From: Streptosporangium sp. NBC_01495
GTDB taxonomy: Bacteria > Actinomycetota > Actinomycetes > Streptosporangiales > Streptosporangiaceae
NCBI RefSeq assembly: GCF_036250735.1
Contig: NZ_CP109430.1
Coordinates: forward strand, 7,378,001-7,442,000
Direction of reading: 5' to 3'
DNA length: 64,000 nt
This document shows, piece by piece, positions 1,346 through 16,385 of the stretch. Position 1 is the stretch's first letter, and each line of letters opens with the position of its first letter. The position numbers and the translations under genes were made by a program. The notes below the pieces were generated by a model. It saw only the letters and a program-made list of their open reading frames with translations, searched no databases and was not told the DNA's origin.

Positions 1346-2851
1346 TCAGCCCACGACCACACCGAAGGCGAACAGGCTGTAGAGCAGCATCCCCAGATAG
1401 AAGACCGCCCCGAAGCCGATGATCAGGTTGGTCCAGATCTTCGGCCGGATCGGTTTGGGCAACATGCGGTTGTTCACCAGCAGGAGCGTCACGCAGTAGG
1501 CGCCCATGGCGAACGTGGACAGGAACGCCAGCGTGTCGAGGATCCCGCTCGGGCCGTCGGCCGGGCCGAACAGCAGGATCAGGATGCCGAACGCGATGAC
1601 GCCCCACAGGAACCCGGCGTACAGGCGGGACATCCCGAACTTCTTCGCACCGCGTACGAAGTGGAAGCTCATGTCCGCCTGTCCCCTGGAGAAGGAGTCG
1701 AACAGGCCGAGGGTGGCGTTCAGCCCGATCAGCGCGATGAAGCCGAGGAAGACCCCGCCCAGCACCGAGCTGCCCGCGGAGGCGAAGGAGTCGGCCATCG
1801 CGTTCAGCGCCACCTCCCTGTCGCCCGACTCGATCACGGTGCGGACGCCGGGGGTGTTCCGTGCCGCCGCCTGGGCGATCACGGTGAAGGAGACGGTGAC
1901 CAGCATCGTGATGCCCCAGAAGAGCAGAAGCGCGTCGAAGGTGACCCAGCGCCGCCACCCCTTCCACTTGCGCATCTCCTCGGGGTTGTTCGTGTCGAAC
2001 ATGAAGCCGCGCGAGGGCATGGCCTCTTCCTCGCCGGCGTGCCGGAGACCGCGGACGGCCGGGATGTGGGCGCCCATGCCGGCTCCGGAGTCACGCAGAT
2101 GCAGGGTGTACCACATCTGCTGCATCCCGGACGGTCCGGCGAAGGCGATCGAGCCCACGATGACCGGGAACCAGGCCTCGGAGAGCGCCTGCTGCGGCAG
2201 GTAGCCGAAGGCGAACATCCCGGTGATCGTGCTCACCACGTCGCCCCAGGTGCCGACCATGGCCGCCACCACGGCGGTTCCGACGACGAGCGTGCCGATC
2301 AGGATCGACAGCACGCTCTCCAGCAGGTTGTAGATGACCTTCGCCAGGCTGAAGACGACGCCGACGAGTATCAGGCCCGCGATGGCCGTGATCAGCCATG
2401 GAATGCCGGTGATCTGCTCGAAGGCGGCGGCCCCCGCGGACAGATGACCCGGCCAGATGTAGACGAGGATCGCGACGACGAAGAAGAACCACATCAGGGG
2501 CTTGAAGACCCGGGCGGCGCCGAAGAAGATGCTCTCCCCGGTCGCCATGGCGTAGCGGGCCATCTCCAGCATGACCACGGCCTGGAGGGTGACTCCGATG
2601 AGGAACAGCCACCGGATCTCCGGCCCGAACAGCAGGACCAGCCGGGGCCACATGTACGACTCGCCCATGCCCACGCCGAGCGCGACGAGGAACACCGTCG
2701 GCCCGAGGATGTGGATCGACGGGGGAGCGTCGGGCAGGGTGCGTATGGGCATCGGCTCCAGCCCGCCCGCCCGCCATACTTTTTCTTCCTGGCCGGATGC
2801 GGCGGCGGCTTCGCCGGGCTCCGCTGCAGCCGGTGTTCTCGATGTGTCCAC
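1346..2851 (-). CDS. Nramp-fold transporter lacking the canonical metal-binding motifs
   Basis: A 501-residue inner-membrane transporter with about 11-12 hydrophobic segments, resembling the Nramp/SLC11 superfamily. Where true Nramp proteins carry DPGN in TM1, this one reads 'LGVGMGESYMWPR' (near residues 58-70). Where TM6 should carry MPH, it reads 'AFAGPSGMQQMWYTLH'. The usual Mn/Fe ligands are therefore missing and a different substrate is likely. The start is GTG with AGGAGG 7 nt upstream. It sits 71 nt downstream of the acyl-CoA ligase and overlaps the next gene. Given the operon, an oxalate, formate or metal-chelate substrate is conceivable, but that is inference only. Confidence 0.75.
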   Translation of the reverse strand: MDTSRTPAAAEPGEAAAASGQEEKVWRAGGLEPMPIRTLPDAPPSIHILGPTVFLVALGVGMGESYMWPRLVLLFGPEIRWLFLIGVTLQAVVMLEMARYAMATGESIFFGAARVFKPLMWFFFVVAILVYIWPGHLSAGAAAFEQITGIPWLITAIAGLILVGVVFSLAKVIYNLLESVLSILIGTLVVGTAVVAAMVGTWGDVVSTITGMFAFGYLPQQALSEAWFPVIVGSIAFAGPSGMQQMWYTLHLRDSGAGMGAHIPAVRGLRHAGEEEAMPSRGFMFDTNNPEEMRKWKGWRRWVTFDALLLFWGITMLVTVSFTVIAQAAARNTPGVRTVIESGDREVALNAMADSFASAGSSVLGGVFLGFIALIGLNATLGLFDSFSRGQADMSFHFVRGAKKFGMSRLYAGFLWGVIAFGILILLFGPADGPSGILDTLAFLSTFAMGAYCVTLLLVNNRMLPKPIRPKIWTNLIIGFGAVFYLGMLLYSLFAFGVVVG

Positions 2852-2922: not shown

Positions 2923-5058
2923 TCAGCCGCGCAGCAACCCTGCGGCCCTCGCCCAGCGATACTTGGCGCCGAGCACGGCCACGGGCTTCTCCGTGGTGTA
3001 CGGGTAGGCGATCACCCCGTTCGCGAAGAGATGGTCACAGGCCTGCTCGACCTCGGTGTCACCGGCCAGTGAGGCGACCACGGGCTTGTCGTTGCCCTTG
3101 GCCCGCTCCTCGGCCACGACCCGCGCGACCAGCTCGGCGAAGACCATCGGCGGGGTGATGATCGTGTGCCAGTAGCCGATCACCAGCGCGTGCACGCGGG
3201 GATCGGCCAGGCCCAGCCTGATGGTGTTCTCGTAGGTGCTGGGCGGTTCGCCACCGGTGATGTCGACGGGGTTGCCCGCCGCCCCGAAGGGCGGGATGTA
3301 GGCGCGGAAGGCCTCGTCGAGATCCGGCGGGATCTCCATGAGGGTCAGTCCGTTGTCGACGCAGGCGTCGGAGAGCAGCACTCCCGAGCCGCCCGCCCCG
3401 GTGATGATGACGACGTTCTCGCCCTTGGGCGTGGGCATCAGCGGTAGCGACCTGGCGTACTCGAGCATGTCGTTGAGGCCCGGGGCCCGCACGACGCCCG
3501 CCTGGCGAAGGATGTCGTCGTAGACCTTGTCGTCGCCGGCCAGCGCTCCGGTGTGCGAGCCCGCGGCCCGCGCGCCCATCGCGGTGCGCCCGGCCTTGAG
3601 CACGATCACCGGCTTCTTGGCGACCATCCGCTGGGCGGCCTCGACGAACCCGCGCCCGTCCTTGAGATCTTCCAGGTGCATGGCCACGCAGTTGGTGTTG
3701 TCGTCCTGCTCGAAGAAGGTGAGCAGGTCGTCCTCGTCGACGTCGGCCTTGTTGCCGACCCCGACGATCGCCGAGACGCCCATCCCGGTGGTACGGCTGA
3801 AGCCGAGGATGGCCATGCCGATACCACCGCTCTGCGAGGTCAGCGCGACCCCGCCCTTCACGTCGTACGGCGTGCAGAACGTGGCGCACAGGTTTTCCGG
3901 CGTGTAGTAGTAGCCGTAGATGTTGGGGCCGAGCATGCGCATGCCGTGCTTGCGGGCGATCTCGACGATCTCCTGCTGGCCCTCGACATTGCCCGTCTCG
4001 GCGAACCCGGACGGGATCATGATGGCTCCGGCCACCCCCTTGCGCCCGGCGTCCTCCAGCGCCGCGGGCACGAACTTGGCCGGGATGGCGAAGACCGCCA
4101 CGTCGACCTCGCCCGGCACGTCGGCGATGCTCGGGTAGGCGGGCAGCCCGAGGATCTCCGAGGACTTCGGGTTGATCGGGTAGATGTGCCCCCGGTAGCC
4201 GCCGTTGATCAGGTTGCGCATGACCGAGTTGCCGATCTTGCCGGTCTCGCCGGAGGCTCCGATCACCGCGACGGCGCGCGGCTTGAAGATCCGGTTCATC
4301 CCGGTGAGGATCTCCTCCCGCGAGAGCCGGGCGGGCGCGACGACGGGGTCGGCGTCGAGAAGGATGCGCACGTCGGCGGCCGTCGCGCCGTCGGAGGTGG
4401 CGAAGACGGGGTTCAGGTCCACCTCCGCGATCTCGGGGAAGTCCCCGACGAGGGCGCCGACTCGCTCGATCATGTTCGACAGCGCCCCCCTGTCGGCCGC
4501 TTCGGCACCACGGACACCGCGCAGCACCTCCGCCGCCCTGATGTCGTCCAGCATCCCGAGTGCATCATCACCCGAGAGGGGGGCCAGCCGGAAGGTCACG
4601 TCCTTGAGGACTTCGACGAGCACCCCGCCGAGCCCGAAGGCGACGACCTTGCCGAAGGTCTGGTCGGTGACCGCACCGATGATCACCTCGTGCCCGGCGC
4701 CGACCATGGCCTGGACCTGGACGCCGTCGATCGACGCCTCGGGGTCGTACGAGCGCGCGGAGGCCACGATCCGGTCGTAGCCGGCGCGCACCGCGTCGAG
4801 GTCGGCCAGGCCGACGAGCACCCCGCCCGCCTCGGTCTTGTGCAGGATGTCAGGAGAGACGATCTTGAGCACCACCGGCAGGCCGATCTCCCCGGCGAGC
4901 GACACCGCCTCCTCGGCCGAGGTCGCCACCCCCTCGCCGGGGGTCGAGATGCCGTACGCCTGGCAGATCTTCCTGCCTTCGGGGGCGGTCAGCGCGGTGC
5001 GGCCCTCGACGCGGGCCTTGTCCAGCACCTCGCGTACGGCGGCCTGGTCATGCGCCAT
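2923..5058 (-). CDS. NDP-forming acyl-CoA ligase, ATP-grasp/CoA-binding fusion
   Basis: A 711-residue cytoplasmic enzyme of the acetate--CoA ligase (ADP-forming) family. An ATP-grasp beta-like domain occupies residues 1-235. A CoA-binding Rossmann domain follows at about 258-355 ('AVAVIGASGETGKIGNSVMR'), then a succinyl-CoA-synthetase-like region. The phosphorylated histidine is H502 in 'GSHTGALAG'. The family converts acyl-CoA + ADP + Pi to acid + CoA + ATP, or the reverse. The ATG shares one base with the stop of the CoA-transferase gene (TGATG), so coupling is tight. The substrate cannot be read from sequence; formyl-CoA or a 2-hydroxyacyl-CoA would fit the neighbours. Longer upstream readings run through the CoA-transferase and are wrong. 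Confidence 0.88.
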   Translation of the reverse strand: MAHDQAAVREVLDKARVEGRTALTAPEGRKICQAYGISTPGEGVATSAEEAVSLAGEIGLPVVLKIVSPDILHKTEAGGVLVGLADLDAVRAGYDRIVASARSYDPEASIDGVQVQAMVGAGHEVIIGAVTDQTFGKVVAFGLGGVLVEVLKDVTFRLAPLSGDDALGMLDDIRAAEVLRGVRGAEAADRGALSNMIERVGALVGDFPEIAEVDLNPVFATSDGATAADVRILLDADPVVAPARLSREEILTGMNRIFKPRAVAVIGASGETGKIGNSVMRNLINGGYRGHIYPINPKSSEILGLPAYPSIADVPGEVDVAVFAIPAKFVPAALEDAGRKGVAGAIMIPSGFAETGNVEGQQEIVEIARKHGMRMLGPNIYGYYYTPENLCATFCTPYDVKGGVALTSQSGGIGMAILGFSRTTGMGVSAIVGVGNKADVDEDDLLTFFEQDDNTNCVAMHLEDLKDGRGFVEAAQRMVAKKPVIVLKAGRTAMGARAAGSHTGALAGDDKVYDDILRQAGVVRAPGLNDMLEYARSLPLMPTPKGENVVIITGAGGSGVLLSDACVDNGLTLMEIPPDLDEAFRAYIPPFGAAGNPVDITGGEPPSTYENTIRLGLADPRVHALVIGYWHTIITPPMVFAELVARVVAEERAKGNDKPVVASLAGDTEVEQACDHLFANGVIAYPYTTEKPVAVLGAKYRWARAAGLLRG

Positions 5059-6281
5059 CAGATGACTCCGTTCGTCTTCAGGTCGGCCAGCTCGTCGGCG
5101 GACAGGCCGAGGCCGGCGTAGATCTCGGTGTTGTGCTCGCCGAGCAGGGGCGGTGCGGTGACGTCCACCGGCGAGTCGGACAGGTGCAGCGGGCTGCCGA
5201 CCGTCACGAAGGAGCCGCGCTCGGGGTGGTCGACCTCGATCAGCGCGCCCTCCTGCCGCAGGCTCTCGTCCTCCAGCAGCTCCTTGGTGGACAGGATCGG
5301 GCCGCAGGGGATGTTGGCGGCGTTGAGCCGGTCGAGGACCTCCCACTTGTCGCGGGTGATGCTCCACTCCTCGATGAGCTGGAACATCTTGTCGAGGTTG
5401 GGAAGGCGCGCCTCGGGGGTGGCCCACTCGGGGTCGTCGCCCAGCTCGGGGCGGCCGATGATCCCGGCGAGCGGCGCCCAGCCGACCGGCTGCACGATGA
5501 CGTAGATGTAGTCGTTGGGACCGCCGGGGGCGCACCGCACGGCCCAGCCGGGCTGGCCGCCGCCCGAGGCGTTGCCCGAGCGCGGCACCTCGTCGCCGAA
5601 GGTCTTGTTGGGGTATTCCGACAGGGGTCCGTGGCCGAGCCGCTGCTGGTCGCGGAGCTTCACCCGGCACAGGTTGAGCACCGCGTGCTGCATGGCCACC
5701 TGGACGCGCTGGCCGCGCCCGGTCTGCTCGCGCTGGTAGAGGGCGGCCAGGATGCCGGCCACGGCGTGGATGCCGGTGCCCGAGTCGCCGATCTGGGCGC
5801 CGGTGGCCAGCGGCGGGCCGTCCTCGAAGCCGGTGGTGCTCATCGAGCCGCCCATCGCCTGGGCGATCACCTCGTACGCCTTGAAACCGGCGTAGCGTCC
5901 CGGGCCGAAACCCTTGATCGAGGCGTAGACCAGCCGCGGGTTGAGCTCCTGGAGCCGGTCCCAGGAGAACCCCATCCGGTCGACCGCGCCGGGCCCGAAG
6001 TTCTCCACCAGGATGTCGGAGTCGCGCACCAGGTCGGTGAAGATCTGCTTGCCGCGGTCGCTCTTCATGTTGAGGGTGATGCTGCGCTTGTTGCAGTTCA
6101 GCATCGTGAAGTAGAGGCTGTCGACGCCGGGGACGTCGCGCAGCTGCTTGCGGGTGATGTCGCCGGAGGGCGCCTCCAGCTTGATCACGTCGGCGCCGAG
6201 CCAGGCCAGGAGCTGCGTACAGGACGGACCCGACTGCACGTGGGTCATGTCGAGGACGCGGACACCTTCCAGTGCCTTCAT
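5058..6281 (-). CDS. frc: Formyl-CoA:oxalate CoA-transferase (class III CoA-transferase)
   Basis: A 407-residue class III CoA-transferase that moves CoA from formyl-CoA to oxalate, giving oxalyl-CoA and formate. It closely follows the Oxalobacter Frc pattern as I remember it: '[14 protein letters not shown]' near residues 10-23, '[12 protein letters not shown]' near 62-73, '[14 protein letters not shown]' near 92-105, the catalytic aspartate at D166 in 'GDSGTG', and the glycine-rich loop '[11 protein letters not shown]' at 236-246. Length matches the family. It starts 10 nt after the decarboxylase-like gene and overlaps the ligase gene. A related 2-hydroxy-acid acceptor cannot be excluded. 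Confidence 0.9.
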
Positions 6282-6291
6282 GGGGCCCCCC

Positions 6292-7983
6292 TCACTTGTA
6301 CATGGTCTGGTTCATGGTTCCGGGCGCGTACACGTCCGGATCGACCCACACGTTGATCAGTGCGGGCTTGCCCGACTCGCGGGCCCGCTCCAGCGCGGGC
6401 CGGATGTCGGCGGGGTCCCTGACCTCCTCGCCGTGGCCGCCCAGCATCCGGGCGAACTCGTCGTATCTGACGTCGCCGAGGGTGTTGCCGACCCGGCCGC
6501 GGTTCTCGCCGTACTTGGCGGCCTGGCCGTAGCGGATCTGGTTCATCGACGAGTTGTTGCCGATGACGCCGATGAACGGCAGGTTGAAGCGGACCATCGT
6601 CTCGAAGTCCCAGCCGGTGAGGCTGAACGCCCCGTCTCCGAAGAGGCAGAGCACCTCCTTGTCGGGTTTGGCGTACTTGGCCGCCATGGCGAAGGCGACG
6701 CCGACGCCGAGGGTGCCGAGCGGCCCGGGGTCCATCCAGTGGCCGGGCGACTTGGGCTGGACGACCTGGCCGGAGAAGGTGACGATGTCGCCGCCGTCGC
6801 CGATGTAGATGGTGTCCTCGGTGATGAACTCGTTGATCTCGTGGACCAGGCGGTAGGGGTCGATCGGCTGTGAGCCGGACAGCTGGCGGGGCAGCCGCTT
6901 CTCGTAGGCCGCGGTCTCGACCGCGCGCAGCTCCTCCAGCCACTCCTTGCGCCGGGTCGCGCCGTTCTCGACGCGGCCCGAGGCGGCCTGGGTGGCCGCG
7001 GCCAGGATCAGCCCGGCGTCACCGACGATGCCCAGGTCGATGTCGCGGTTCTTGCCGACGGTGCGGTAGTCGAGGTCGATCTGGACCACCGTCGCCGAGG
7101 GCGACAGGCGCTTGCCGTAGCCCATCCGGAAGTCGAACGGGGTGCCGACGATGATGATCAGGTCGGCGTTGGTGAAGGCGTAGCGCCGGGAGAGCTGGAA
7201 GTGGTGCGGGTCGCCCGGGGGCAGCGTGCCGCGGGCCGAGCCGTTCATGTAGGCGGGGACGTTGAGCGCGCGGACGAAGTTGATCGCGTCGTCGGTGCCC
7301 CGGGTGGTCCAGACCTGGCTGCCCAGCAGGACGCAGGGCTTCTCCGCGTGGGCCAGCATGTCGGCGAGGCGCTCGACGGCCTCGGGGTCTCCGGCCTGGC
7401 GTACGGAGGCGCGGTAGCGGCCGGCCTCGGGGATGCGGGCCTTGGAGATCGGGACGCTGGCGTCGAGGACGTCGCGCGGGATCTCCAGGAAGGACGGCCC
7501 GGGAGCGCCGTGGTAGCACTCCCTGAAGGCCATCGAGACGATGTCGGCGACCCGCTCGGTCGAGGGGACCGTGGCCGCGAACTTGGTGATCGGGGTCATC
7601 ATGTCGACGTGGGGAAGGTCCTGCAGCGAGCCCATCTTGTGCTGGCTCAGAGCTCCCTGCCCCCCGATGAGCAGCATGGGGCTCTCCGCCCTGAAGGCGT
7701 TGGCCACGCCGGTCACCGCGTCGGTGGTGCCCGGCCCCGCCGTCACGACCGCGCAACCCGGCTTGCCGGTGATCCTGGCGTAACCGTCGGCCGCGTGCGC
7801 CGCCACCTGCTCGTGGCGGACGTCGATGACCTCGATGCCCTCGTCGACGCAACCGTCGTAGATGTCGATGATGTGGCCGCCGCAGAGCGTGAAGATCACA
7901 TCGATCCCCTCCGCCTTGAGCGCCTTCGCCACCAGGTGGCCTCCGGAGATGGTTTCCGGCGCCGTGTCCGCTGGCTGGGTCAT
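6292..7983 (-). CDS. ThDP-dependent oxalyl-CoA decarboxylase / 2-hydroxyacyl-CoA lyase-like enzyme
   Basis: A 563-residue three-domain ThDP enzyme. The cofactor-activating glutamate is E58 ('RHEQ') and the Mg-ThDP motif starts at G449 ('GDGAF', followed about 27 residues later by 'NN'). The neighbouring frc suggests oxalyl-CoA decarboxylase. However, the Tyr-Glu pair of the Oxalobacter enzyme's active site is replaced ('[11 protein letters not shown]'), so a 2-hydroxyacyl-CoA lyase releasing formyl-CoA is equally possible. The C-terminus is 'GTMNQTMYK'. An upstream ATG at 8013 overlaps the promoter element and has no ribosome-binding site; the ATG at 7983 has GAGAGG about 9 nt upstream and is preferred. 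First gene of the six-gene operon. Confidence 0.78.
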
Positions 7984-8007: not shown

Positions 8008-8028
8008 CTCCATACTGCATACCGTATG
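8008..8028 (-). promoter_or_regulatory. Shared 21-bp element and -10 of the oxalate operon
   Basis: Read on the minus strand, the element is CATACGGTATG followed by CAGTATGGAG. It contains a perfect CATAC-C-GTATG palindrome (8018-8028) and ends in the -10-like TATGGA (8014-8009). It matches the fdh promoter element at 15 of 21 positions and the reductase element at 15 of 21. With transcription starting about 7 nt after TATGGA, the ATG at 7983 is correctly placed. A GntR-type regulator is a reasonable guess; none is encoded nearby. Confidence 0.65.
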
Positions 8029-8061
8029 AGGGCAATGGTTACCCCCGGGGTCCGGCGATGT

Positions 8062-9477
8062 CTAGACCCTTTGTGCGGGTAGTGAGACAAGCTCGACCGG
8101 CTCGCCCCTCCACCCGGGCGGGACGACCGCGAGCGCTTCGGCGAGCGCGGCCCCCCACAGCGATCCCGGCCGGTCGTGCCCGACGGGCACCGCGCCACGC
8201 CCGCCGCGCCGCACCGCGACCATGCGGGTGTCGGCGTGGTGGGGCCGCACGTGACCGGTGAGCGCGGACCGCTCGCGCGGGGCCTCGGGCCCGCCCGCGA
8301 GCGCCCGGACCGCCGGGGCGAGCAACGTCAGCGCGGCGACCAGCGCGGCGTAGGGATTGCCCGGCAGCCCGGCCACCAGGCGCCCGTCGGGAAGCCTGGC
8401 GAGGAGTTGCGGGTGGCCCGGACGCACCGCGACACCGTCGACGAGGATCTCCGCCCCGAGCCCGGCGAGCACCGCCCTCAGGTGGTCGGCGGGCCCCTTC
8501 GACGAGGCGCCGCAGACCACGATCACCTGGCCCGGCGGCCCGTCCTGGGTCCCCGCGAGCGCGGCGGTCAGTGCCCGCGCCCCGTCGGGCAGCCACGACG
8601 GCGCCTCGGCCCGGCCGCCCGCCCACTCGACGAGCCCCGGCAGCATGGGACCGATCGCGTCACGCACCCGCCCCGGGCCCGGGAGCCCCAGCGTGACCAC
8701 CTCGTCGCCCGTGACCAGCACGGACACCAGGGGTTTGGGCCGCACGCGGAGCACGTCGTGCCCGAGCCCGGCCGCGAGGCCGAGCACCGCGGGCGTCACG
8801 GCCGAACCGGCCGTGAGAACGACGGTCCCCAGCGGGCAGTCCTCGCCGCGCCGGCGGATGTGCCTGCCGGGCTCGACCGCCCCGGAAGGGGCCGACACCC
8901 ACTCGCCGACCGGCCCGCCCGCCGTACGGGACTCCCCGCCCGGTGGCGCGAACCGGCCGAGCGGTGGCGTGAACCGGCCCGGTGGCGCGGACCGGCCGGG
9001 CACCCCGCCTCCCGGCGGCGGTGCGCCGGTCCGTACGGCCGCCTCGTAGGGCAGCACCGCCTCGGCGCCCTCTGGCACCGGGGCGCCGGTGGCGATCTCC
9101 ACCGCCGTACCGGGCGCGAGCGCGGCCCCGTAGGCCGCGCCCCCTGCGAGCACGAGACCCGTGATCCGCCAGGGCGGATCGCCCGCGACCGCGTAGCCGT
9201 CCATCGCGGCCACGTCGGCGCCGGGCACCGGGACGAGGGCGCGCAGCGGCCCGGCCAGGCGGCAGCCGTACGCCAGGTGGAGGGGGAGGTCGACCGGGGA
9301 GAGCGGCCCCGCGGCGGACGCCGCGACCCGGCGGGCCGACTCCCACGGGAGCGCCTCCGCATGGGCGCCGCGGTGCGGTGCCCCCGCCGGTGACGGCGCT
9401 GGTGAGGGCCCCGGCGAGGACAGGGCGGCCGGATCTCGGGACGGGGCTTCGTGGACGGTGGATCTGAGGACGGCCAT
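8062..9477 (-). CDS. moeA: MoeA-like molybdopterin molybdotransferase
   Basis: A 471-residue MoeA-family protein, expected to insert molybdate into adenylylated molybdopterin. Family signatures are 'AAMDGYAV' near residues 90-97, 'EIATGAPVPEGAEAVLPYE' near 127-145, 'VLVTGDEVV' and 'GLPGNPYAALVA' towards the C-terminus. The usual 'GGVSxGDYD' reads 'CGASSKGPADH', a divergent version. A Gly/Pro/Arg-rich insertion at about 150-190 is built from repeats of 'GRFxPP'. The ATG has AAGGAG upstream. It lies divergent from the reductase and next to a molybdenum formate dehydrogenase, which explains its presence. Longer upstream readings run through the divergent promoter and are rejected. Confidence 0.85.
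   Translation of the reverse strand: MAVLRSTVHEAPSRDPAALSSPGPSPAPSPAGAPHRGAHAEALPWESARRVAASAAGPLSPVDLPLHLAYGCRLAGPLRALVPVPGADVAAMDGYAVAGDPPWRITGLVLAGGAAYGAALAPGTAVEIATGAPVPEGAEAVLPYEAAVRTGAPPPGGGVPGRSAPPGRFTPPLGRFAPPGGESRTAGGPVGEWVSAPSGAVEPGRHIRRRGEDCPLGTVVLTAGSAVTPAVLGLAAGLGHDVLRVRPKPLVSVLVTGDEVVTLGLPGPGRVRDAIGPMLPGLVEWAGGRAEAPSWLPDGARALTAALAGTQDGPPGQVIVVCGASSKGPADHLRAVLAGLGAEILVDGVAVRPGHPQLLARLPDGRLVAGLPGNPYAALVAALTLLAPAVRALAGGPEAPRERSALTGHVRPHHADTRMVAVRRGGRGAVPVGHDRPGSLWGAALAEALAVVPPGWRGEPVELVSLPAQRV
8920..9060. repeat. Low-complexity CGG/CCG-rich repeat inside moeA
   Basis: Imperfect tandem copies of a roughly 24-27-bp unit built on GGTGGCGCGAACCGGCC. They encode the 'GRSAPPGRFTPPLGRFAPPGG' stretch of the MoeA-like protein. 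The insert probably forms a surface loop, since the flanking MoeA motifs stay intact. Confidence 0.6.
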
Positions 9478-9510
9478 CGGCGACTCCTTGACCGGATTTT
9501 TTCCATACTG

Positions 9511-9531
9511 TATACCGAATGCACTATGGAC
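9511..9531 (+). promoter_or_regulatory. Shared 21-bp element and -10 upstream of the reductase
   Basis: TATACCGAATG followed by CACTATGGAC, in the same orientation relative to its gene as the copies at the oxalate operon and fdh promoters. The -10-like TATGGA occupies 9525-9530. Read from 9504, the 18-mer differs from the oxalate-operon copy (8011-8028) at only two positions. It lies in the divergent moeA/reductase intergenic region and may control both. Confidence 0.65.
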
Positions 9532-9549
9532 GCGAGGACGGAGCCTCTT

Positions 9550-10539
9550 GTGAAAGTCGCTGTTCTTGGCGCCGGCGCCATCGGCGCCTACGTCGGCGCC
9601 GCCCTGTGCAGGGCAGGCGCCGAGGTGCATCTGATCGCCCGCGGAGAGCACCTCGCGGCGATGCGCAAATCGGGAGTGCGCGTGCTCAGCCCGCGCGGAG
9701 ACTTCACCGCCCACCCCCACACCACCGACGACCCCCGCGAGATCGGCCCGGTGGACCACGTCTTCCTCGGCCTCAAGGCCAACTCCTACGCGGCGGCCGG
9801 ACCCATGATCCAGCCGCTGCTTCACGAGACCACCGGCCTCATCGCGGCCCAGAACGGCATCCCGTGGTGGTATTTCCACCGGCTGCCCGGCCCCTACCAG
9901 GGCCATGTGATCGAGAGCGTCGACCCCGGCGGGGCGGTCACCTCCGCGCTGCCGCTGGAGCGCGCCATCGGATGCGTCGTCTACGCGGCGACGGAGATCG
10001 AGGCGCCCGGCGTGATCCGCCATCTGGAGGGCACCCGCTTCTCCATCGGCGAACCCGACGGCTCCCTCTCGTCACGCTGCGTCGACTTCAGCGCCGCCAT
10101 GATCCAGGGCGGCCTGAAGTGTCCCGTCGAGGCCGATCTGCGGCGTGACATCTGGATCAAGCTCATGGGCAACATCGCCTTCAACCCGATCAGCGCGCTC
10201 ACCCGGGCGACCATGGCGGGCATCTGCCGCCACCGCGGGACGCGCGACCTCGTCGTCACCATGATGCGCGAGACCGTCGACGTGGCCCGCCGGGTGGGCT
10301 GCGAGCCGGACATCTCGATCGAGCGCCGGATCGCGGGCGCCGAGCGGGCCGGTGAGCACAAGACCTCCACGCTCCAGGACCTGGAGAAGGGCAAGCCCCT
10401 GGAGCTCGACGTGCTTCTCGCCGCCGTCGTGGAACTGGCCGACCTGACCGGGGCCGAGGTGCCCACGCTGCGGGCGATCCACGCGGTCGCCGACCTCCTG
10501 GACGAGCGGGTCCGGGAAAATCTTGCCGCCGCCAGTTGA
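9550..10539 (+). CDS. Ketopantoate-reductase-family (PanE/ApbA) 2-oxoacid reductase
   Basis: A 329-residue NADPH-dependent reductase of the PanE/ApbA family. The Rossmann motif 'VAVLGAGAIGAYVGAALC' is at residues 3-20, followed by the 'FLGLKANSY' region and the C-terminal helical domain with 'KLMGNIAFNPISALT'. I chose GTG 9550 because GAGGACGGAG lies about 6 nt upstream, the family begins at this point, and the ATG at 9526 falls inside the -10 box. It shares a promoter element with the oxalate and formate dehydrogenase genes, so it more likely reduces a 2-oxoacid of that pathway (for example glyoxylate) than makes pantothenate; that is inference. Confidence 0.82.
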   Translation: MKVAVLGAGAIGAYVGAALCRAGAEVHLIARGEHLAAMRKSGVRVLSPRGDFTAHPHTTDDPREIGPVDHVFLGLKANSYAAAGPMIQPLLHETTGLIAAQNGIPWWYFHRLPGPYQGHVIESVDPGGAVTSALPLERAIGCVVYAATEIEAPGVIRHLEGTRFSIGEPDGSLSSRCVDFSAAMIQGGLKCPVEADLRRDIWIKLMGNIAFNPISALTRATMAGICRHRGTRDLVVTMMRETVDVARRVGCEPDISIERRIAGAERAGEHKTSTLQDLEKGKPLELDVLLAAVVELADLTGAEVPTLRAIHAVADLLDERVRENLAAAS

Positions 10540-10565
10540 TGCGACATACCGTAGACTGTATACAG
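10536..10565 (+). promoter_or_regulatory. Promoter and shared 21-bp element of the fdh operon
   Basis: A -35-like TTGATG (10536-10541) is followed after exactly 17 bp by the -10 TATACA (10559-10564). The 21-bp shared element fills 10545-10565: CATACCGTAGAC followed by TGTATACAG. A bound repressor would cover the whole core promoter. The ATG at 10586 and its ribosome-binding site lie correctly downstream. Confidence 0.7.
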
Positions 10566-10585: not shown

Positions 10586-12520
10586 ATGAAGAGGGACCGC
10601 GGGGACCGCGCCGAGCACTACGACCGGCTCACCCATCCCCTTGTCCGTGAAAACGGCGTGCTGCGCCGCGCCACCTGGGACGAGGCGCTGCGACGGGCCG
10701 CGGAGGGCTTCCGCCGCAACGTCGAGGCACACGGGCCGGACGCCTTCGCGATGCTGTCGTGCGCCCGCTCCACCAACGAGATGAACTACGTGGGCCAGAA
10801 GTTCACCCGGGTCGTGATAGGCACCAACAACGTCGACTCCTGCAACCGCACCTGCCACGCCCCGAGCGTGGCGGGCCTGTCCGCGGCCTTCGGCAGCGGC
10901 GGCGGCACCTCCTCCTACCAGGAGGTGGAGGACGCCGACGTGATCGTGATGTGGGGCTCGGCGGCACGCAACGCGCACCCGATCTTCTTCCACCACGTGC
11001 TCAAGGGGATAAGAAAGGGCGCCCGCATGTTCGCGGTCGACCCCCGCCGCACGGGCACCGCCGAGTGGGCCGACCTCTGGATGGGCCTCAACGTGGGCAC
11101 CGACATCCCCCTGGCGCACGCGGTGGGCCGGGAGATCATCCACGCGGGGCTGCACAACGTCTCGTTCATCGAGCGCGCCACCGAGGGCTTCGAGGAGTAC
11201 GCCGCCTCGGTCGAGCCGTGGACGCTCCCGGTGGCCGAGCAGGTCACCGGGGTGCCCGCGGCCGCCATCCGGGAGCTCGCGCACGCCTACGCCAGGGCCG
11301 ACCGGGCCCAGCTGTGCTGGACGCTCGGCATCACCGAGCACCACAACGCCACCGACAACGTGCGCGCCCTCATCAACCTGGCGCTGCTCACCGGCCACGT
11401 CGGCCGCTACGGTTCGGGTCTGTCCCCGCTGCGCGGCCAGAACAACGTGCAGGGCGGCGGCGACATGGGCGCGATCCCCAACCGGCTGCCCGGCTTCCAG
11501 GACATCCTCGACCCCGAGATCCGCGGCAAGTTCGAGCAGGCGTGGGACAAGCCCATCCAGCCGCGCTACGGCCTCAACCTCACCGAGATGCTGGAGGCGA
11601 TGGCCGAGGGCGAGGTCACCACCTGCTACCTCATCGGGGAGAACCCGGTGCAGTCCGAGGCCGACTCGCTGAGCTGCATCAAGCGGCTCAGCATGCTCGA
11701 CCACCTGGTCGTGCAGGACATCTTCCTGACCAAGACCGCCCAGATGGCCGACGTGGTGCTGCCGGCGGGCGCGGCCTGGTGCGAGAGCGAGGGCACCTTC
11801 ACCAACAGCGAACGGCGGGTGCAGCGGGTCCGCAAGGCGCTCGAGGCGCCGGGCGAGGCCCGCGACGACATCTGGATCCTCTGCGAGCTCGCCCGCCTCC
11901 TGGGCCACGACTGGAACTACACCGGCGCCGAGGAGGTCTGGAACGAGCTCCGTGCCCTCTCCCCCGCCCACACCGGCATGACCTACGACAGGCTCGACAA
12001 GCTCCAGGGCATCCAGTGGCCCTGCCCGTCGGAGGACTCCCTCGAACCGCCCTTCCTGCACGGGCGGCTCTGGGAGACCGACCCGGCCCGGCGGGGCAGA
12101 GCAGCGCCGTTCGCGGTGCTCAGACACTCCCCACCGGTCGACCTGCTCGACGACGAATACCCCCTGCGGCTCACCACCGGCCGCCGTCTCGACTCCTACA
12201 ACACCGGCGTGCAGTCGTCCGGGTTCGCCTCACCGCTGCGCAGGGGCGAGAACATCGAGCTCTCCCCCGAGGACGCCGCGCGGCTGGGGGTGAGTCCCGG
12301 CGAGGAGGTCAGGATCAGCTCCCGGCGCGGCTCGGTCATCGCCCCCGTCTACGTCGACCCGGCCCTCCGTCCCGGCCTGGTCTTCATGACGATGCACTTC
12401 CCCGACGAGGTCGACACCAACGCCCTCACCATCGAGGCCACCTGCCCGATCGCGGGCACCGCCGAGTTCAAGGCCGCCGCCGTGCGCGTCGACAAGCTCG
12501 TACCCGCGAAGGCCGGGTGA
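10586..12520 (+). CDS. Formate dehydrogenase alpha subunit, molybdopterin catalytic part (lacks the N-terminal Fe4S4 domain)
   Basis: A 644-residue molybdopterin oxidoreductase catalysing formate to CO2. It begins 'RLTHPLVRENGVLRRATWDEAL' in outline (residues 14-35), exactly where a formate dehydrogenase alpha chain continues after its N-terminal Fe4S4 domain. That domain is missing here and is encoded at the end of the protein from 14600. The molybdenum ligand is a cysteine, C90 in 'CNRTCHAPS', not selenocysteine. The C-terminal molydopterin-dinucleotide-binding domain is intact ('RLTTGRRLDSYNTG'). The ATG at 10586 has AAAGGA upstream. It is followed 7 nt later by the NuoE-NuoF fusion. Confidence 0.9.
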   Translation: MKRDRGDRAEHYDRLTHPLVRENGVLRRATWDEALRRAAEGFRRNVEAHGPDAFAMLSCARSTNEMNYVGQKFTRVVIGTNNVDSCNRTCHAPSVAGLSAAFGSGGGTSSYQEVEDADVIVMWGSAARNAHPIFFHHVLKGIRKGARMFAVDPRRTGTAEWADLWMGLNVGTDIPLAHAVGREIIHAGLHNVSFIERATEGFEEYAASVEPWTLPVAEQVTGVPAAAIRELAHAYARADRAQLCWTLGITEHHNATDNVRALINLALLTGHVGRYGSGLSPLRGQNNVQGGGDMGAIPNRLPGFQDILDPEIRGKFEQAWDKPIQPRYGLNLTEMLEAMAEGEVTTCYLIGENPVQSEADSLSCIKRLSMLDHLVVQDIFLTKTAQMADVVLPAGAAWCESEGTFTNSERRVQRVRKALEAPGEARDDIWILCELARLLGHDWNYTGAEEVWNELRALSPAHTGMTYDRLDKLQGIQWPCPSEDSLEPPFLHGRLWETDPARRGRAAPFAVLRHSPPVDLLDDEYPLRLTTGRRLDSYNTGVQSSGFASPLRRGENIELSPEDAARLGVSPGEEVRISSRRGSVIAPVYVDPALRPGLVFMTMHFPDEVDTNALTIEATCPIAGTAEFKAAAVRVDKLVPAKAG

Positions 12521-12527
12521 AGGGGGA

Positions 12528-14603
12528 GTGGATCTCCGGTTCAGCGACGCCGAACCTTCGGCCGAGGAGCGCGCCGCGATCGACGCGTTCCTCGGCGCCC
12601 CCACGACGGGCTGGGAGGGTGGCATCCGCTCCGACGGCGACCTGCGGGTCGCCGTCGGCGGGCACGAGGCCCGTGACCGGCGCGACCTGCTGCTCCCCGC
12701 GCTGCACGCGGTCAACGACAGGATCGGCTGGATCAGCGAGGGCGCTCTCGACTACATCTGCCGCCGCCTGACCGTGCCGCCCGCCGAGGCGTACGGGGTG
12801 GCGACGTTCTACTCGCTGTTCTCGACGAAGCCGCGACCGGCGCGGGTGCTGCACGTCTGCACCGACCTGGCCTGCCAGGCGCGCGGCGCCGACGCGGTGC
12901 GGCGAAGCACCGAGGAGAGGCTCGGGCCGCCCGGCATGTCCTGGCAGCCGAGCCCCTGCCTCGGCCTGTGCGAGCGGGCACCCGCCGCGCTGGCCCTGCA
13001 GGCCGGCGAGTTCCCCGGGGCGACCGTGTACGGCCCCGCCGAACCGGCACCGGCTCCCACCGGCGGCGCCAACGGAAGCGGTGCGGCCAACGGAAGCGGT
13101 GCGGCCAACGGAGCCGACCAGGCCCACGACGTCGGCGGCGCGGCAGGCACGAGCGGCACGGGCACCACCGGCACCACGAGCGGTGCGGGCGGTGCGGACA
13201 CCACGAGCGGCGCGGGCACCATCGGCGCCACGAGCGGCGCAGGCGCCGGCGGCGCGGGCCGGGCGCAGGATCTCAGCAGGCTCGGTGGCCTCAGCGGCAT
13301 GGACGCCACCGGCGGCCCCGCCCTGGCCGAGCGCGCGGAGCCTCCCGCCGAGCACGCCGTCCCGCAGGCGGGCGACCCCTCCCTCGTGCTGCTGCGCCGG
13401 GTGGGAATCGTCGACCCGGCGAGCCTGGACGACTACCGGGCCGAGGGCGGCTACGCCGCGCTGCGCGAGGCCGTCAGGATCGGTCCCGCCGGAGTCATCC
13501 GCGAGGTGCTCGAATCCGGCCTCGTCGGGCGGGGCGGCGCGGCGTTCCCCACCGGGCGCAAGTGGGAGGCCACGGCCCGCCAGCTCGACCACCCCCACTA
13601 CCTGGTCTGCAACGCCGACGAGAGCGAGCCGGGCACCTTCAAGGACCGCGTGATCATGGAGGGTGACCCGTACGCGCTGGTGGAGGCGATGACCATCGCC
13701 GCGTACGCCACCGGCTGTCCCAAGGGCTACCTCTACATCCGCGGGGAGTATCCCCGGGCGATCGGCCGGATGGCCCACGCCATCGACGTCGCCCGCGCAC
13801 GCGGCCTGCTCGGGGCCGACGTCATGGGACAGGGCTTCGCCTTCGACATCGAGATCAGGCGCGGCGCGGGCGCCTACATCTGCGGCGAGGAGACCGCGAT
13901 CTTCAACTCGATCGAGGGCTTCCGCGGCGAACCGCGCAGCAAGCCGCCCTTCCCCGTGGAGAAGGGCCTGTTCGGCAAGCCCACCGTGGTCAACAACGTC
14001 GAGACGCTGGTCAACGTGCTGCCCATCCTCGCCGGTGGGGCCGCCGCCTACGCGGCGACCGGCACGGAGGGCTCGACGGGCACCAAGCTGTTCTGCGTCT
14101 CGGGCACGGTCGCCAAGCCGGGTGTCTACGAGCTGCCGTTCGGCGCCACCCTGCGCGAGCTGCTCACGCTGTCCGGGGGCGCGACCGGGACGCTCCGGGC
14201 GGTGCTGCTGGGCGGCGCGGCCGGCGGGTTCGTCCGCCCGGACGAGCTCGACGTCCCGCTGACCTTCGAGGGCACCCGGGCGGCCGGCACGACCCTGGGT
14301 TCGGGTGTGGTCCTGGTGCTCGACGACAGCGTCGACCTGGCCCACATCCTCCTGCGCATCGCGGAGTTCTTCCGCGACGAGTCGTGCGGGCAGTGCGTGC
14401 CCTGCCGGGTGGGCACCGTACGGCAGGAGGAGGCCCTGCACCGGCTGAGCCGCAGGCCCACGGCCGGCGACATCGCGCTGCTGCGGGAGGTCGGCCAGGC
14501 CATGCGCGACGCCTCGATCTGCGGGCTCGGCCAGACCGCCTGGAACGCCGTCGAGTCGGCCATCGACCGGCTGGGCGTCTTCTCCCCCTCGGAGGCATCA
14601 TGA
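12528..14603 (+). CDS. NuoE-NuoF fusion: formate dehydrogenase diaphorase subunit
   Basis: A 691-residue fusion. Residues 1-175 are a NuoE-like thioredoxin-fold domain with its [2Fe-2S] cysteines ('VCTDLAC' and 'CLGLC'). Residues 290-691 are NuoF-like: the FMN/NADH site 'GRGGAAFPTGRKWEA', 'CNADESEPGTFKDR', and [4Fe-4S] cysteines in 'ESCGQCVPCRVGT'. The two are joined by about 100 residues of Gly/Ala/Ser/Thr repeats. The subunit passes electrons from the molybdenum centre to NAD+. GTG start; a purine-rich AAGGGGGA lies very close to it. It ends in an ATGA overlap with the next gene. Confidence 0.9.
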   Translation: MDLRFSDAEPSAEERAAIDAFLGAPTTGWEGGIRSDGDLRVAVGGHEARDRRDLLLPALHAVNDRIGWISEGALDYICRRLTVPPAEAYGVATFYSLFSTKPRPARVLHVCTDLACQARGADAVRRSTEERLGPPGMSWQPSPCLGLCERAPAALALQAGEFPGATVYGPAEPAPAPTGGANGSGAANGSGAANGADQAHDVGGAAGTSGTGTTGTTSGAGGADTTSGAGTIGATSGAGAGGAGRAQDLSRLGGLSGMDATGGPALAERAEPPAEHAVPQAGDPSLVLLRRVGIVDPASLDDYRAEGGYAALREAVRIGPAGVIREVLESGLVGRGGAAFPTGRKWEATARQLDHPHYLVCNADESEPGTFKDRVIMEGDPYALVEAMTIAAYATGCPKGYLYIRGEYPRAIGRMAHAIDVARARGLLGADVMGQGFAFDIEIRRGAGAYICGEETAIFNSIEGFRGEPRSKPPFPVEKGLFGKPTVVNNVETLVNVLPILAGGAAAYAATGTEGSTGTKLFCVSGTVAKPGVYELPFGATLRELLTLSGGATGTLRAVLLGGAAGGFVRPDELDVPLTFEGTRAAGTTLGSGVVLVLDDSVDLAHILLRIAEFFRDESCGQCVPCRVGTVRQEEALHRLSRRPTAGDIALLREVGQAMRDASICGLGQTAWNAVESAIDRLGVFSPSEAS
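13060..13270 (+). repeat. GC-rich repeats encoding the NuoE-NuoF linker
   Basis: Imperfect tandem copies of short units such as GGAAGCGGTGCGGCCAAC and ACGAGCGG-type blocks. They encode a Gly/Ala/Ser/Thr linker ('TSGAG', 'NGSGAA'). The unit is in-frame, so the domain fusion survives copy-number change. Confidence 0.7.
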
Positions 14604-15559
14604 GTGTTCCCCTGCAGCCGCCCCGGCGGCTGATCGAGATAACCGTCGACGGCGACCCGGTCCGGGTGCCGGAGGGCTCGACCGTGCTGGACGCCTGCTC
14701 GGCGGCGGGCAAGGACATCCCGACCCTCTGCTACGGCGACACCCTCACCCCGAAGAACGCCTGCCGGGTCTGCGTGGTCGAGGTCGAGGGCGCCCGGACG
14801 CTCGCCCCCGCCTGCTCGCGCAGGGCCGAGCCCGGCATGGTCGTCGGCACCGCGACCGAGCGCGCCCGGCACAGCCGCAAGATCGTCCTGGAGCTGCTGG
14901 CCTCGACGGCCGACCTGTCCACCACGCCGCGCGCGGCCGAGTGGATCGAGGAGTACGGCGCGCGGCCCGACCGCTTCGGCGAGGAGGCCGCCACGGTCGC
15001 GCAGCCCGCGAAGGTCGACAACGACCTCTACGTGCGCGACTACTCCAAGTGCATCCTCTGCTACAAGTGCGTCGACGCCTGTGGCGACCAGTGGCAGAAC
15101 AGCTTCGCCATCTCGGTCGCCGGGCGGGGCTTCGACGCGATGATCTCGACCGAGCACGACGCCCCGCTCACCGACTCGGCCTGCGTCTACTGCGGCAACT
15201 GCGTGGAGGTCTGCCCCACCGGGGCGCTGTCGTTCAAGAGCGAGTTCGACATGCGCGCCGCGGGCAGCTGGGACGAGTCCCGGCAGACCGAGACGACGAC
15301 GATCTGCAGTTACTGCGGGGTCGGCTGCAACCTGACCCTGCACGTGCAGGACAACCGGATCGTCAAGGTGAGCTCGCCGCACGACAACCCGGTCACCCAC
15401 GGCAACCTGTGCATCAAGGGCCGTTTCGGCTTCCAGCACGTCCAGAACGTGGCCTCCCAGGAGGACGCGATCCCCGTCTCCGGCCCCGTGTCCAGCTCTG
15501 TCTCCGGCTCTGCCCCAGGTTCCGTTCCCGGCGCGCGGACGGCCCCGGCCGATGGGTAG
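14600..15559 (+). CDS. Formate dehydrogenase iron-sulfur subunit: NuoG-type N-terminus plus the detached alpha-subunit Fe4S4 domain
   Basis: A 319-residue electron-transfer subunit. In order it shows a plant-type [2Fe-2S] domain (residues 10-75, 'LCYGD' and 'NACRVC'), two [4Fe-4S] clusters ('CILCYKC' and '[12 protein letters not shown]'), and a MopB Fe4S4 domain ('CSYCGVGC', later '[10 protein letters not shown]'). The last domain is normally the N-terminus of the catalytic subunit. The His/Cys cluster of NuoG is absent (the region reads '[12 protein letters not shown]'). ATG with GGAGG upstream, coupled to the diaphorase gene (ATGA), and overlapping fdhD by 8 nt. Confidence 0.87.
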
Positions 15560-16385
15560 GGTCACCGTCAAACGCCGGGTCCTGCGGCTGCGGGAGACCG
15601 CGGCCGCCCATCGGGTCGACGTGCTGGCGGCCGAGGAGCCGCTGGAGATCCGGCTCGACGGGCGGCCGCTCACGATCACCATGCGCACGCCGGGCGACGA
15701 CTTCGACCTGGCGGCGGGCTTCCTGGTGAGCGAGGGAGTGGTCACCTCCGCCGAGGAGGTCACCGCGATCCGCTACTGCGCGGGCGCCACCGCCGACGGC
15801 GCCAACACCTACAACGTGCTCGACGTCAGGCTGGCGGCGGGCACGTCCCCGCCGGCGACCTCGCTGGAGCGCAACTTCTACACCACCTCCTCGTGCGGGG
15901 TGTGCGGCAAGGCCTCGCTCGACGCGGTCCGCACGGTCGCCAAGTGGCGGGTGGACGGCGACCCCGCGCCGGTGACGGCCGAGGTGATCGCGGCGCTGCC
16001 CGACCGGCTTCGCGCGGCCCAGCGGGTGTTCGACCGGACCGGCGGGCTGCACGCCGCGGGCCTGTTCACGCTCGGCGGCGACGCGCTCTGCGTGCGCGAG
16101 GACGTGGGCCGGCACAACGCGGTGGACAAGCTGGTGGGCTGGGCGCTGCGCGACGGACGCCTGCCGCTCGCCTCGACCGTGCTCATGGTGTCGGGACGCG
16201 CCTCCTTCGAGCTGGTCCAGAAGGCGGTGATGGCCGGCATCCCGATCCTCGCCGCCGTCTCGGCCCCCTCCTCGCTGGCCGTGGAGCTGGCCGCCGAGGC
16301 GGGGCTGACACTCATCGGGTTCGTCAGGGGCAGCTCGATGAACGTCTACACCGGGGAAGGACGCGTCGGCCTGGTCCCCGGCTGA
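15552..16385 (+). CDS. fdhD: Formate dehydrogenase accessory sulfurtransferase FdhD
   Basis: A 277-residue FdhD protein that transfers sulfur to the molybdenum cofactor of formate dehydrogenase. The catalytic C-x2-C pair is C115/C118 in 'TSSCGVCGK'. Other family blocks are '[14 protein letters not shown]' and '[13 protein letters not shown]'. The ATG lies inside the end of the iron-sulfur subunit gene. Last gene of the fdh operon. Confidence 0.93.

Follow-up and report, generated by a model that had tools for sequence, protein, structure and literature searches.

The window analysed in this study is a stretch of 64,000 nucleotides (nt) from Streptosporangium sp. NBC_01495 (assembly GCF_036250735.1, genome size 11.1 Mb; contig NZ_CP109430.1, positions 7,378,001-7,442,000). 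Its left part carries genes apparently involved in oxalate and formate use, whose promoters share a 20-bp palindromic element, considered here as the candidate operator of a neighbouring GntR-type regulator. Positions are given in window numbering, and negative numbers denote places left of the window edge. The genes concerned are the following:

-1918 to -1169, plus strand: GntR/FCD regulator gene (gntR), 1.2 kb beyond the left window edge, with an operator in its own promoter
1346-2851, minus strand: Nramp-family transporter, downstream of the ligase gene on the same strand (NCBIfam Nramp_1, 453 bits, over the cut-off)
2923-5058, minus strand: ADP-forming acyl-coenzyme A (CoA) ligase (ATP-grasp_5, Succ_CoA_lig and Ligase_CoA_2 on 2923-5022)
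5058-6281, minus strand: formyl-CoA:oxalate CoA-transferase, frc (CoA_transf_3; phmmer matches to E. coli YfdW, 496 bits, and formyl-CoA transferase 1p5h, 420 bits)
6292-7983, minus strand: oxc-like thiamine pyrophosphate (TPP)-dependent enzyme, start ATG at 7983 (Pfam TPP_enzyme N, M and C)
9550-10539, plus strand: PanE/ApbA-like reductase, start GTG at 9550 (Pfam ApbA, ApbA_C)
10586-12520, plus strand: formate dehydrogenase molybdopterin subunit, first gene of the fdh operon (Pfam Molybdopterin, Molydop_binding)
12528-14603, plus strand: NuoE/NuoF-like diaphorase subunit (Pfam 2Fe-2S_thioredx, Complex1_51K, NADH_4Fe-4S)
14384-15559, plus strand: iron-sulphur subunit with Molybdop_Fe4S4, a reading frame whose start is not fixed (Pfam Fer2_4, Fer4_7, Molybdop_Fe4S4)
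15552-16385, plus strand: FdhD (Pfam FdhD-NarQ, 246.6 bits)

An MFS transporter gene adjoins the regulator gene; its product is nearest to the lactate and oxalate/formate families, below their cut-offs. The operon divergent from it encodes sucC-like, succinate-CoA-ligase alpha-like and hydroxypyruvate-isomerase-like (hyi; below cut-off) proteins, tartronate semialdehyde reductase (garR) and glyoxylate carboligase (gcl).

An earlier note on this DNA had described three related 21-mers, at 8028-8008, 9511-9531 and 10545-10565, and all three are present at these places. It had counted 15 of 21 identities between the oxc copy and each of the others, which is correct for fdh and one too few for PanE (oxc-PanE 16/21, oxc-fdh 15/21, PanE-fdh 12/21). 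Among 3000 first-order shuffles of each upstream stretch, scanned on both strands, the PanE stretch reached 16 identities in none and 15 in three, and the fdh stretch reached 15 in five. The three copies had also been described as lying in the same orientation relative to their genes; in this respect the PanE copy proved to be 8 bp out of register, and the conserved site at 9503-9522 fits the oxc site better when inverted (17/20). Since the element is palindromic, a common orientation means little, and a same-orientation direct repeat was dropped in favour of a palindrome with three units phased at 7 bp.

This palindrome emerged from a 20-bp matrix trained on upstream regions of relatives (66 oxc-like, 26 PanE, 15 fdh, 29 gntR and 35 sucC regions, the sucC set excluding eight duplicate short loci); the resulting counts are not independent, because many training regions are closely related. 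The matrix consensus, GTATACTGTATACAGTATAC, is equal to its own reverse complement and is made of three GTATAC-like units in 7-bp steps, the central unit being GTATAC. Three sites lie within the window:

8010-8029, minus strand: operator of the oxc-like operon, TCATACGGTATGCAGTATGG, beginning approximately at the predicted transcription start; score 29.2, or 26.3 with the oxc promoters held out
9503-9522, no strand assigned: operator of the PanE-like gene, CCATACTGTATACCGAATGC, overlapping the -10 and kept in relatives; score 29.5, or 20.4 with PanE held out
10544-10563, plus strand: operator of the formate dehydrogenase operon, ACATACCGTAGACTGTATAC; score 24.9, or 22.3 with the fdh promoters held out

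The set given in the earlier note was incomplete, as further sites are found just left of the window, two of them between the divergent sucC-like and MFS genes and one, GTATACTGTAGGCAGTCGAC, upstream of the GntR/FCD gene. In a leave-one-promoter-class-out analysis (five promoter classes, six matrix runs, 82 kb of own sequence scanned), every held-out class was recovered by the matrix trained on the other four, and the 14 best matches were module promoters in each of the six runs, all of which, the oxc-held-out run included, were seeded from the own oxc 20-mer. The best score per module promoter ranged from 19.4 to 29.5; the best background score was 16.0 in 92 kb of other own sequence, from which the regulator's own locus (L135) was excluded, and at most 17.9 with the held-out matrices.

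Matrix scans were applied to these 82 kb and 92 kb of own sequence, and the whole own genome was searched with degenerate patterns. The pattern AKRCNGTAKRCNGTAKRS, which was built on known sites, matches exactly at three places in the 11.1 Mb, all inside this cluster. With at most one mismatch it has 13 matches, eight of them in the cluster, and the reversed control pattern has 16. On the matrix, the five off-cluster matches score 5.5 to 18.2, and the best two of these values, 18.2 and 17.9, come near the weakest module site (19.4). Three of the five fall within reading frames with a high GC content at third codon positions, a location which does not separate true from false sites, because several true sites share it. 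Allowing one mismatch, GTATACNGTATAC matches only the suc/MFS and fdh sites (control pattern, six matches), and CATACNGTATGCAGTATGGA with up to three mismatches matches only the oxc-like and PanE-like promoters (reversed control, 0); the pattern TATGGAATNCAGTATGG has no match in the own genome. Patterns and matrix thus agree that the motif is not equally common at unrelated promoters, which the earlier note had named as grounds for abandoning the idea.

Conservation was assessed in a survey of 150 genomes of the family, in which an oxc-like gene was counted at an identity of at least 78% and the regulator at E <=1e-40. The oxc-like gene is present in 55 of the 150, own genome included, and 67 oxc-like upstream regions were compared (54 from the family, 12 further regions and the own one; gene starts in relatives were extrapolated from alignments). 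A site scoring at least 20 is held by 62/67. The pattern CATACGGTATGCAGTATG occurs with up to two mismatches in 51/150 genomes (reversed control, four matches in total), and a variant, GTCGACTGTATGCAAT, in six regions of one clade and nine class-level regions. The PanE site is conserved among relatives like the oxc site, and the fdh site, CATACCGTAGACTGTATAC, less strictly than these two. Upstream of gntR, a site scoring at least 22 was found in 30/30 orthologues (the own one and L164-L192).

The distribution was also followed beyond the training set in the best 80 of at least 576 regulator relatives, 55 of which lie in or near the trained family (several being training genomes) and 25 outside it; the outside loci (439 kb) are assigned by genus or title to Pseudonocardiaceae, except Halopolyspora, which has no family in the taxonomy. 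A site was assigned to a module gene when it fell in the interval from 260 bp upstream to 60 bp downstream of the gene start, and one first-order shuffle per locus served as control. In the 25 outside loci, 72 sites scoring at least 20 were detected, 68 of them at module genes (shuffled, 0), with sites at oxc-like (20/20), PanE (15/16), MFS (8/10), sucC (4/4) and gntR (13/25) promoters. The 55 loci in or near the family gave 230 sites, 212 of them at module genes (shuffled, none), distributed over oxc-like (48/48), gntR (54/54), sucC (50/50), MFS (48/50) and PanE (12/12) promoters. The earlier proposal of a shared regulatory element defining an oxalate/formate regulon is supported. As separate observations, operator-like sites also precede a NuoE-like fdh gene, a sucC gene and an MFS gene in the relative L086 (by eye), and in L122 such sites lie near the PanE and fdh genes.

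The gene 1.2 kb past the left edge gives good support to the earlier guess of a GntR-type regulator; that the regulator is "not encoded here" held for the window and was off in effect, and with a GntR gene carrying the operator at the cluster edge, a regulator elsewhere in the genome is unneeded. Its product combines an N-terminal GntR winged helix-turn-helix (PF00392, 75.3 bits, cut-off 27) with a C-terminal FCD domain (PF07729, 88.6 bits, cut-off 24.3). In the predicted model (predicted local distance difference test score 84.5), the effector domain has five helices, one of which, with 41 residues, possibly counts as two; the VanR group has six, not seven. The best sequence and fold match of known structure is PmiR of Pseudomonas aeruginosa (PDB 7xp0, 7xp1; 32% identity). 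Further fold matches are a Brucella GntR protein, Atu1419, AlkR, McbR and TM0439, and some of the entries are titled VanR. PmiR reportedly has a role connected with methylcitrate. FCD operators are palindromes with a GT-N2/3-AC core, and the 20-bp consensus centred on GTATAC fits this form; binding by this regulator is predicted. Residues N144, H148, H190 and H212, together with R57 of the recognition helix, are invariant in 16 regulator orthologues; the four align to the zinc ligands of Atu1419, giving the combination of Asn/Asp and three His, and R57 aligns to its base-reading arginine (PMC7797058).

Across the surveyed family, the regulator is present in 54/55 genomes with the oxc-like gene versus 22/95 without it (Fisher p 1.3e-21, a value that is optimistic because the genomes are related), and also, at 61-65% identity, in 9/9 class-level genomes (f18/g85) with an oxc-like gene. 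This co-occurrence bears on the possibility that the operator is real and bound by some other protein, for example a GntR paralogue, the adjacent gene being incidental. Such a substitution is conceivable in a genome with 66 GntR-domain matches, some relatives have two copies of the regulator, and in the fragmented assembly of one genome (G001) the oxc-like gene and a weak site (16.2) are accompanied by a regulator of only 34% identity. Yet the own genome has a single regulator match at E <=1e-40 and the promoter of the adjacent gene itself contains the operator, which, with the count of 54/55, makes another binder very improbable.

The position of the sites relative to the core promoters was also examined, and the following hexamers are inferred:

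8059-8064, minus strand: -35 hexamer TAGACA of the oxc-like promoter (T[AG]GACA-N17 pattern)
8036-8041, minus strand: -10 hexamer TAACCA of the oxc-like promoter, preceding the operator by exactly 6 nt in 27/35 pattern matches
9488-9493, plus strand: -35 hexamer TTGACC of the PanE-like promoter (22/29 pattern)
9511-9516, plus strand: -10 hexamer TATACC of the PanE-like promoter (22/29 pattern)

The oxc-like pattern T[AG]GACA-N16-18-[TG]A[AG]CNA was found in 35/67 upstream regions, always with an N17 spacing. The distance between operator and extrapolated start ranges between 9 and 143 nt across regions; as the -10 spacing is constant in those 27 while the start distance varies, the operator's place is set by the promoter rather than by the start codon. 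The two start codons that the earlier note had derived, ATG 7983 and GTG 9550, hold up: each is preceded by a ribosome-binding-like stretch, and similarity to relatives begins there in many regions. For PanE, a core TTGACx-N16-18-TATACx, with its -10 inside the operator, occurs in 22/29 upstream regions. Transcription is predicted to start near 8029 (minus), 9523 (plus) and 10559 (plus), with the operator centre at +9.5 (oxc), -10.5 (PanE) and -5.5 (fdh) relative to these starts. The conserved hexamers would thus place the operator at, or just 3' of, the -10, as expected for a repressor.

The regulator could alternatively activate transcription and bind DNA only together with its ligand, for ligand-dependent activators exist among FCD proteins, CitO being an example (PMC4746285). 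This is slightly less probable still than another binder, since in the window the centre of every operator is no more than about 10 nt away from the predicted start, where a bound protein would block polymerase, and the operator before gntR covers its likely -10. Least probable of all is the earlier proposal that the element is itself a core promoter whose 3' end forms the sigma-recognised -10, for although TATGGA and TATACA resemble a -10, the PanE operator does contain the likely -10 TATACC and at fdh either hexamer is possible, TATGGA is kept in only 6/67 oxc-like and 1/29 PanE-like regions (that one being the own window), the conserved oxc core stands before the element, the perfectly palindromic consensus has its centre offset differently at each gene, and exact pattern matches are confined to this cluster. 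On the hexamer positions and the TATGGA counts, the core-promoter reading was rejected for the oxc-like and PanE-like genes.

Two further observations concern promoters beyond the left window edge. The MFS gene begins with a start codon (L118:14641, window -3359) that falls inside its operator, and TCGACA-N17-TATTCC stands just upstream by eye; the gene possibly gives a leaderless transcript. Upstream of the regulator gene lies a CRP-like box, TGTGATCAGGCTCAC (L118:15962-15976, window -2038 to -2024). It is found in 26 of 34 gntR upstream rows, which include two genomes twice (L164/L238 and L182/L239), and in 24 of these its centre lies 42-43 nt upstream of the predicted start, presumably where a class II activator would bind.

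The shared palindrome, its conservation and near-confinement, the adjacent and co-occurring FCD regulator, and the conserved metal and DNA-contact residues were computed directly. They point, at a probability of about 0.8, to an operator of the adjacent GntR-superfamily FCD regulator (similar to the VanR group), a repressor controlling an oxalate-degradation module. This repressor would bind the 20-bp palindrome through its GTATAC centre and two GTATAC-like flanks in 7-bp phase and, once seated over the -10 or immediately 3' of it, would block RNA polymerase. Its predicted targets are the operon of the oxc-like enzyme, frc, ligase and transporter, the PanE-like gene and the formate dehydrogenase operon, with the divergent suc-like/hyi/garR/gcl operon, the MFS gene and the regulator's own gene as further ones; repression and the operon structure are themselves predictions. 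Release would most likely follow when a small carboxylate or CoA ester derived from oxalate (oxalate, oxalyl-CoA or glyoxylate) occupies the FCD metal site; a polymerase block lasting until a carboxylate binds at the metal is suggested by analogy, citrate being bound through metal in CitO (PMC4746285).

Several observations weigh against this repressor model. Scores stay below 20 in 5/67 oxc-like regions and reach only 10.6-13.3 in 3/18 fdh promoters, the tentative -35 predicted for fdh overlaps the panE coding sequence, and gntR lacks a site of at least 20 in 12/25 loci outside the family; the gntR sites of f18/g85 are weak in three of four loci examined (17.7; the fourth, 21.7). The 22 genomes with a regulator relative and without an oxc-like gene count on the same side, as does G001, and the existence of FCD activators likewise. 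Two genomes (G087 and G141, loci L238 and L239) keep regulator and operator without an oxc-like gene, with no module gene within the 20 kb examined, which suggests a natural orphan repressor. Finally, the TPP enzyme is as near to the 2-hydroxyacyl-CoA lyase family as to oxalyl-CoA decarboxylase, and a cluster for a TPP-dependent 2-hydroxyisobutyryl-CoA lyase likewise has a GntR gene beside it (PMC7176365), so the effector may come from a source other than oxalate.

Among known systems, Atu1419 of Agrobacterium fabrum (VanR group; PDB 6z74, 6za3), an FCD repressor with a solved DNA complex, is among the closest parallels: it has the same two domains, N-x3-H/H/H ligands and recognition-helix arginine, and binds ATGTATACAT, which shares the GTATAC core and, in one copy, overlaps a -10 (PMC7797058). 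It differs in controlling hydroxycinnamate genes and in an operator made of one 10-bp palindrome instead of three phased units, and the two proteins match in Foldseek at E ~1e-9 with ~26% identity. GlcR and GlcC, glycolate regulators of the FadR subfamily, are also GntR regulators of C2-acid use, GlcR being a repressor, but fall in a clade with PdhR and LldR (PMC11323563). The regulator studied here scores far below the GlcC cut-off (55 vs 301 bits). The operator of Bacillus subtilis GntR, ATACTTGTATACAAGTAT, has a GTATAC centre and inverted GTAT flanks as here, with its flanks two bases from the centre (one here), and serves gluconate genes. No regulator of oxalate use was found in the accessible portions of the open-access literature searched, and the words "regulator" and "GntR" are absent from the accessible text of the oxalotrophy papers PMC10192776 and PMC12927642.

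The module genes can be arranged into a pathway with varying confidence. The TPP enzyme falls below the cut-offs for oxalyl-CoA decarboxylase (TIGR03254, 247.9 vs 739.4; PRK09259, 265.5 vs 557); it is called oxc-like for this reason, and the canonical enzyme was dropped as an identity. Among solved structures, 2-hydroxyacyl-CoA lyase (285 bits) and oxalyl-CoA decarboxylase (267 bits) come nearest to it, and with both cut-offs failed and the two families equally near, its role is taken from the context; it is perhaps a separate actinobacterial decarboxylase lineage. Of the class III CoA-transferases with a known structure, Frc and YfdW come closest to the frc product (the next, YfdE, at 192 bits), which by its nearest solved relatives is a true Frc. 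The ADP-forming ligase is possibly an oxalate-CoA ligase. For the Nramp-family protein, no Pfam match was obtained at E 0.01; in several relatives (such as L045, L056, L229-L236), a protein 33-39% like the cluster MFS replaces it, and as an MFS-like protein takes that place, the Nramp transporter may carry oxalate or its counter-ion. The PanE-like protein belongs to the ketopantoate-reductase family in Pfam and NCBIfam and is a possible oxalyl-CoA reductase by analogy with PanE2 of M. extorquens, an oxalyl-CoA reductase whose product is glyoxylate (PMC8411744, PMC12686821); such an activity would explain its place beside glyoxylate genes. In the formate dehydrogenase (10586-15559), the catalytic chain looks split, with the molybdopterin domain in the first gene and Molybdop_Fe4S4, fused to ferredoxin domains, in the third, and with a NuoE-NuoF fusion between them.

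A more ambitious version, doubtful as a whole, makes the regulator a dedicated oxalate or oxalyl-CoA sensor over a regulon for all of oxalotrophy, from uptake and activation through decarboxylation and reduction to glyoxylate to the conversion of glyoxylate to glycerate and formate oxidation, in Streptosporangiaceae, Pseudonocardiaceae and a third actinobacterial family. The three-unit, 7-bp-phased operator would then possibly be occupied by a tetramer or by stacked dimers, and the regulator's gene would be under CRP-type activation.

Oxalate from plants and fungi is a food for soil bacteria. In this organism and its relatives, one operator and one regulator would join oxalate degradation, glyoxylate assimilation and formate oxidation, and would allow member genes to be predicted. 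Should oxalate or oxalyl-CoA prove to be the effector, this regulator would offer a biosensor for oxalate ready-made, and both the Nramp transporter and the unusual TPP enzyme could be tested as oxalate proteins. The regulator and its operator most likely form a new representative of a well-known type of genetic switch, found in many soil actinobacteria.

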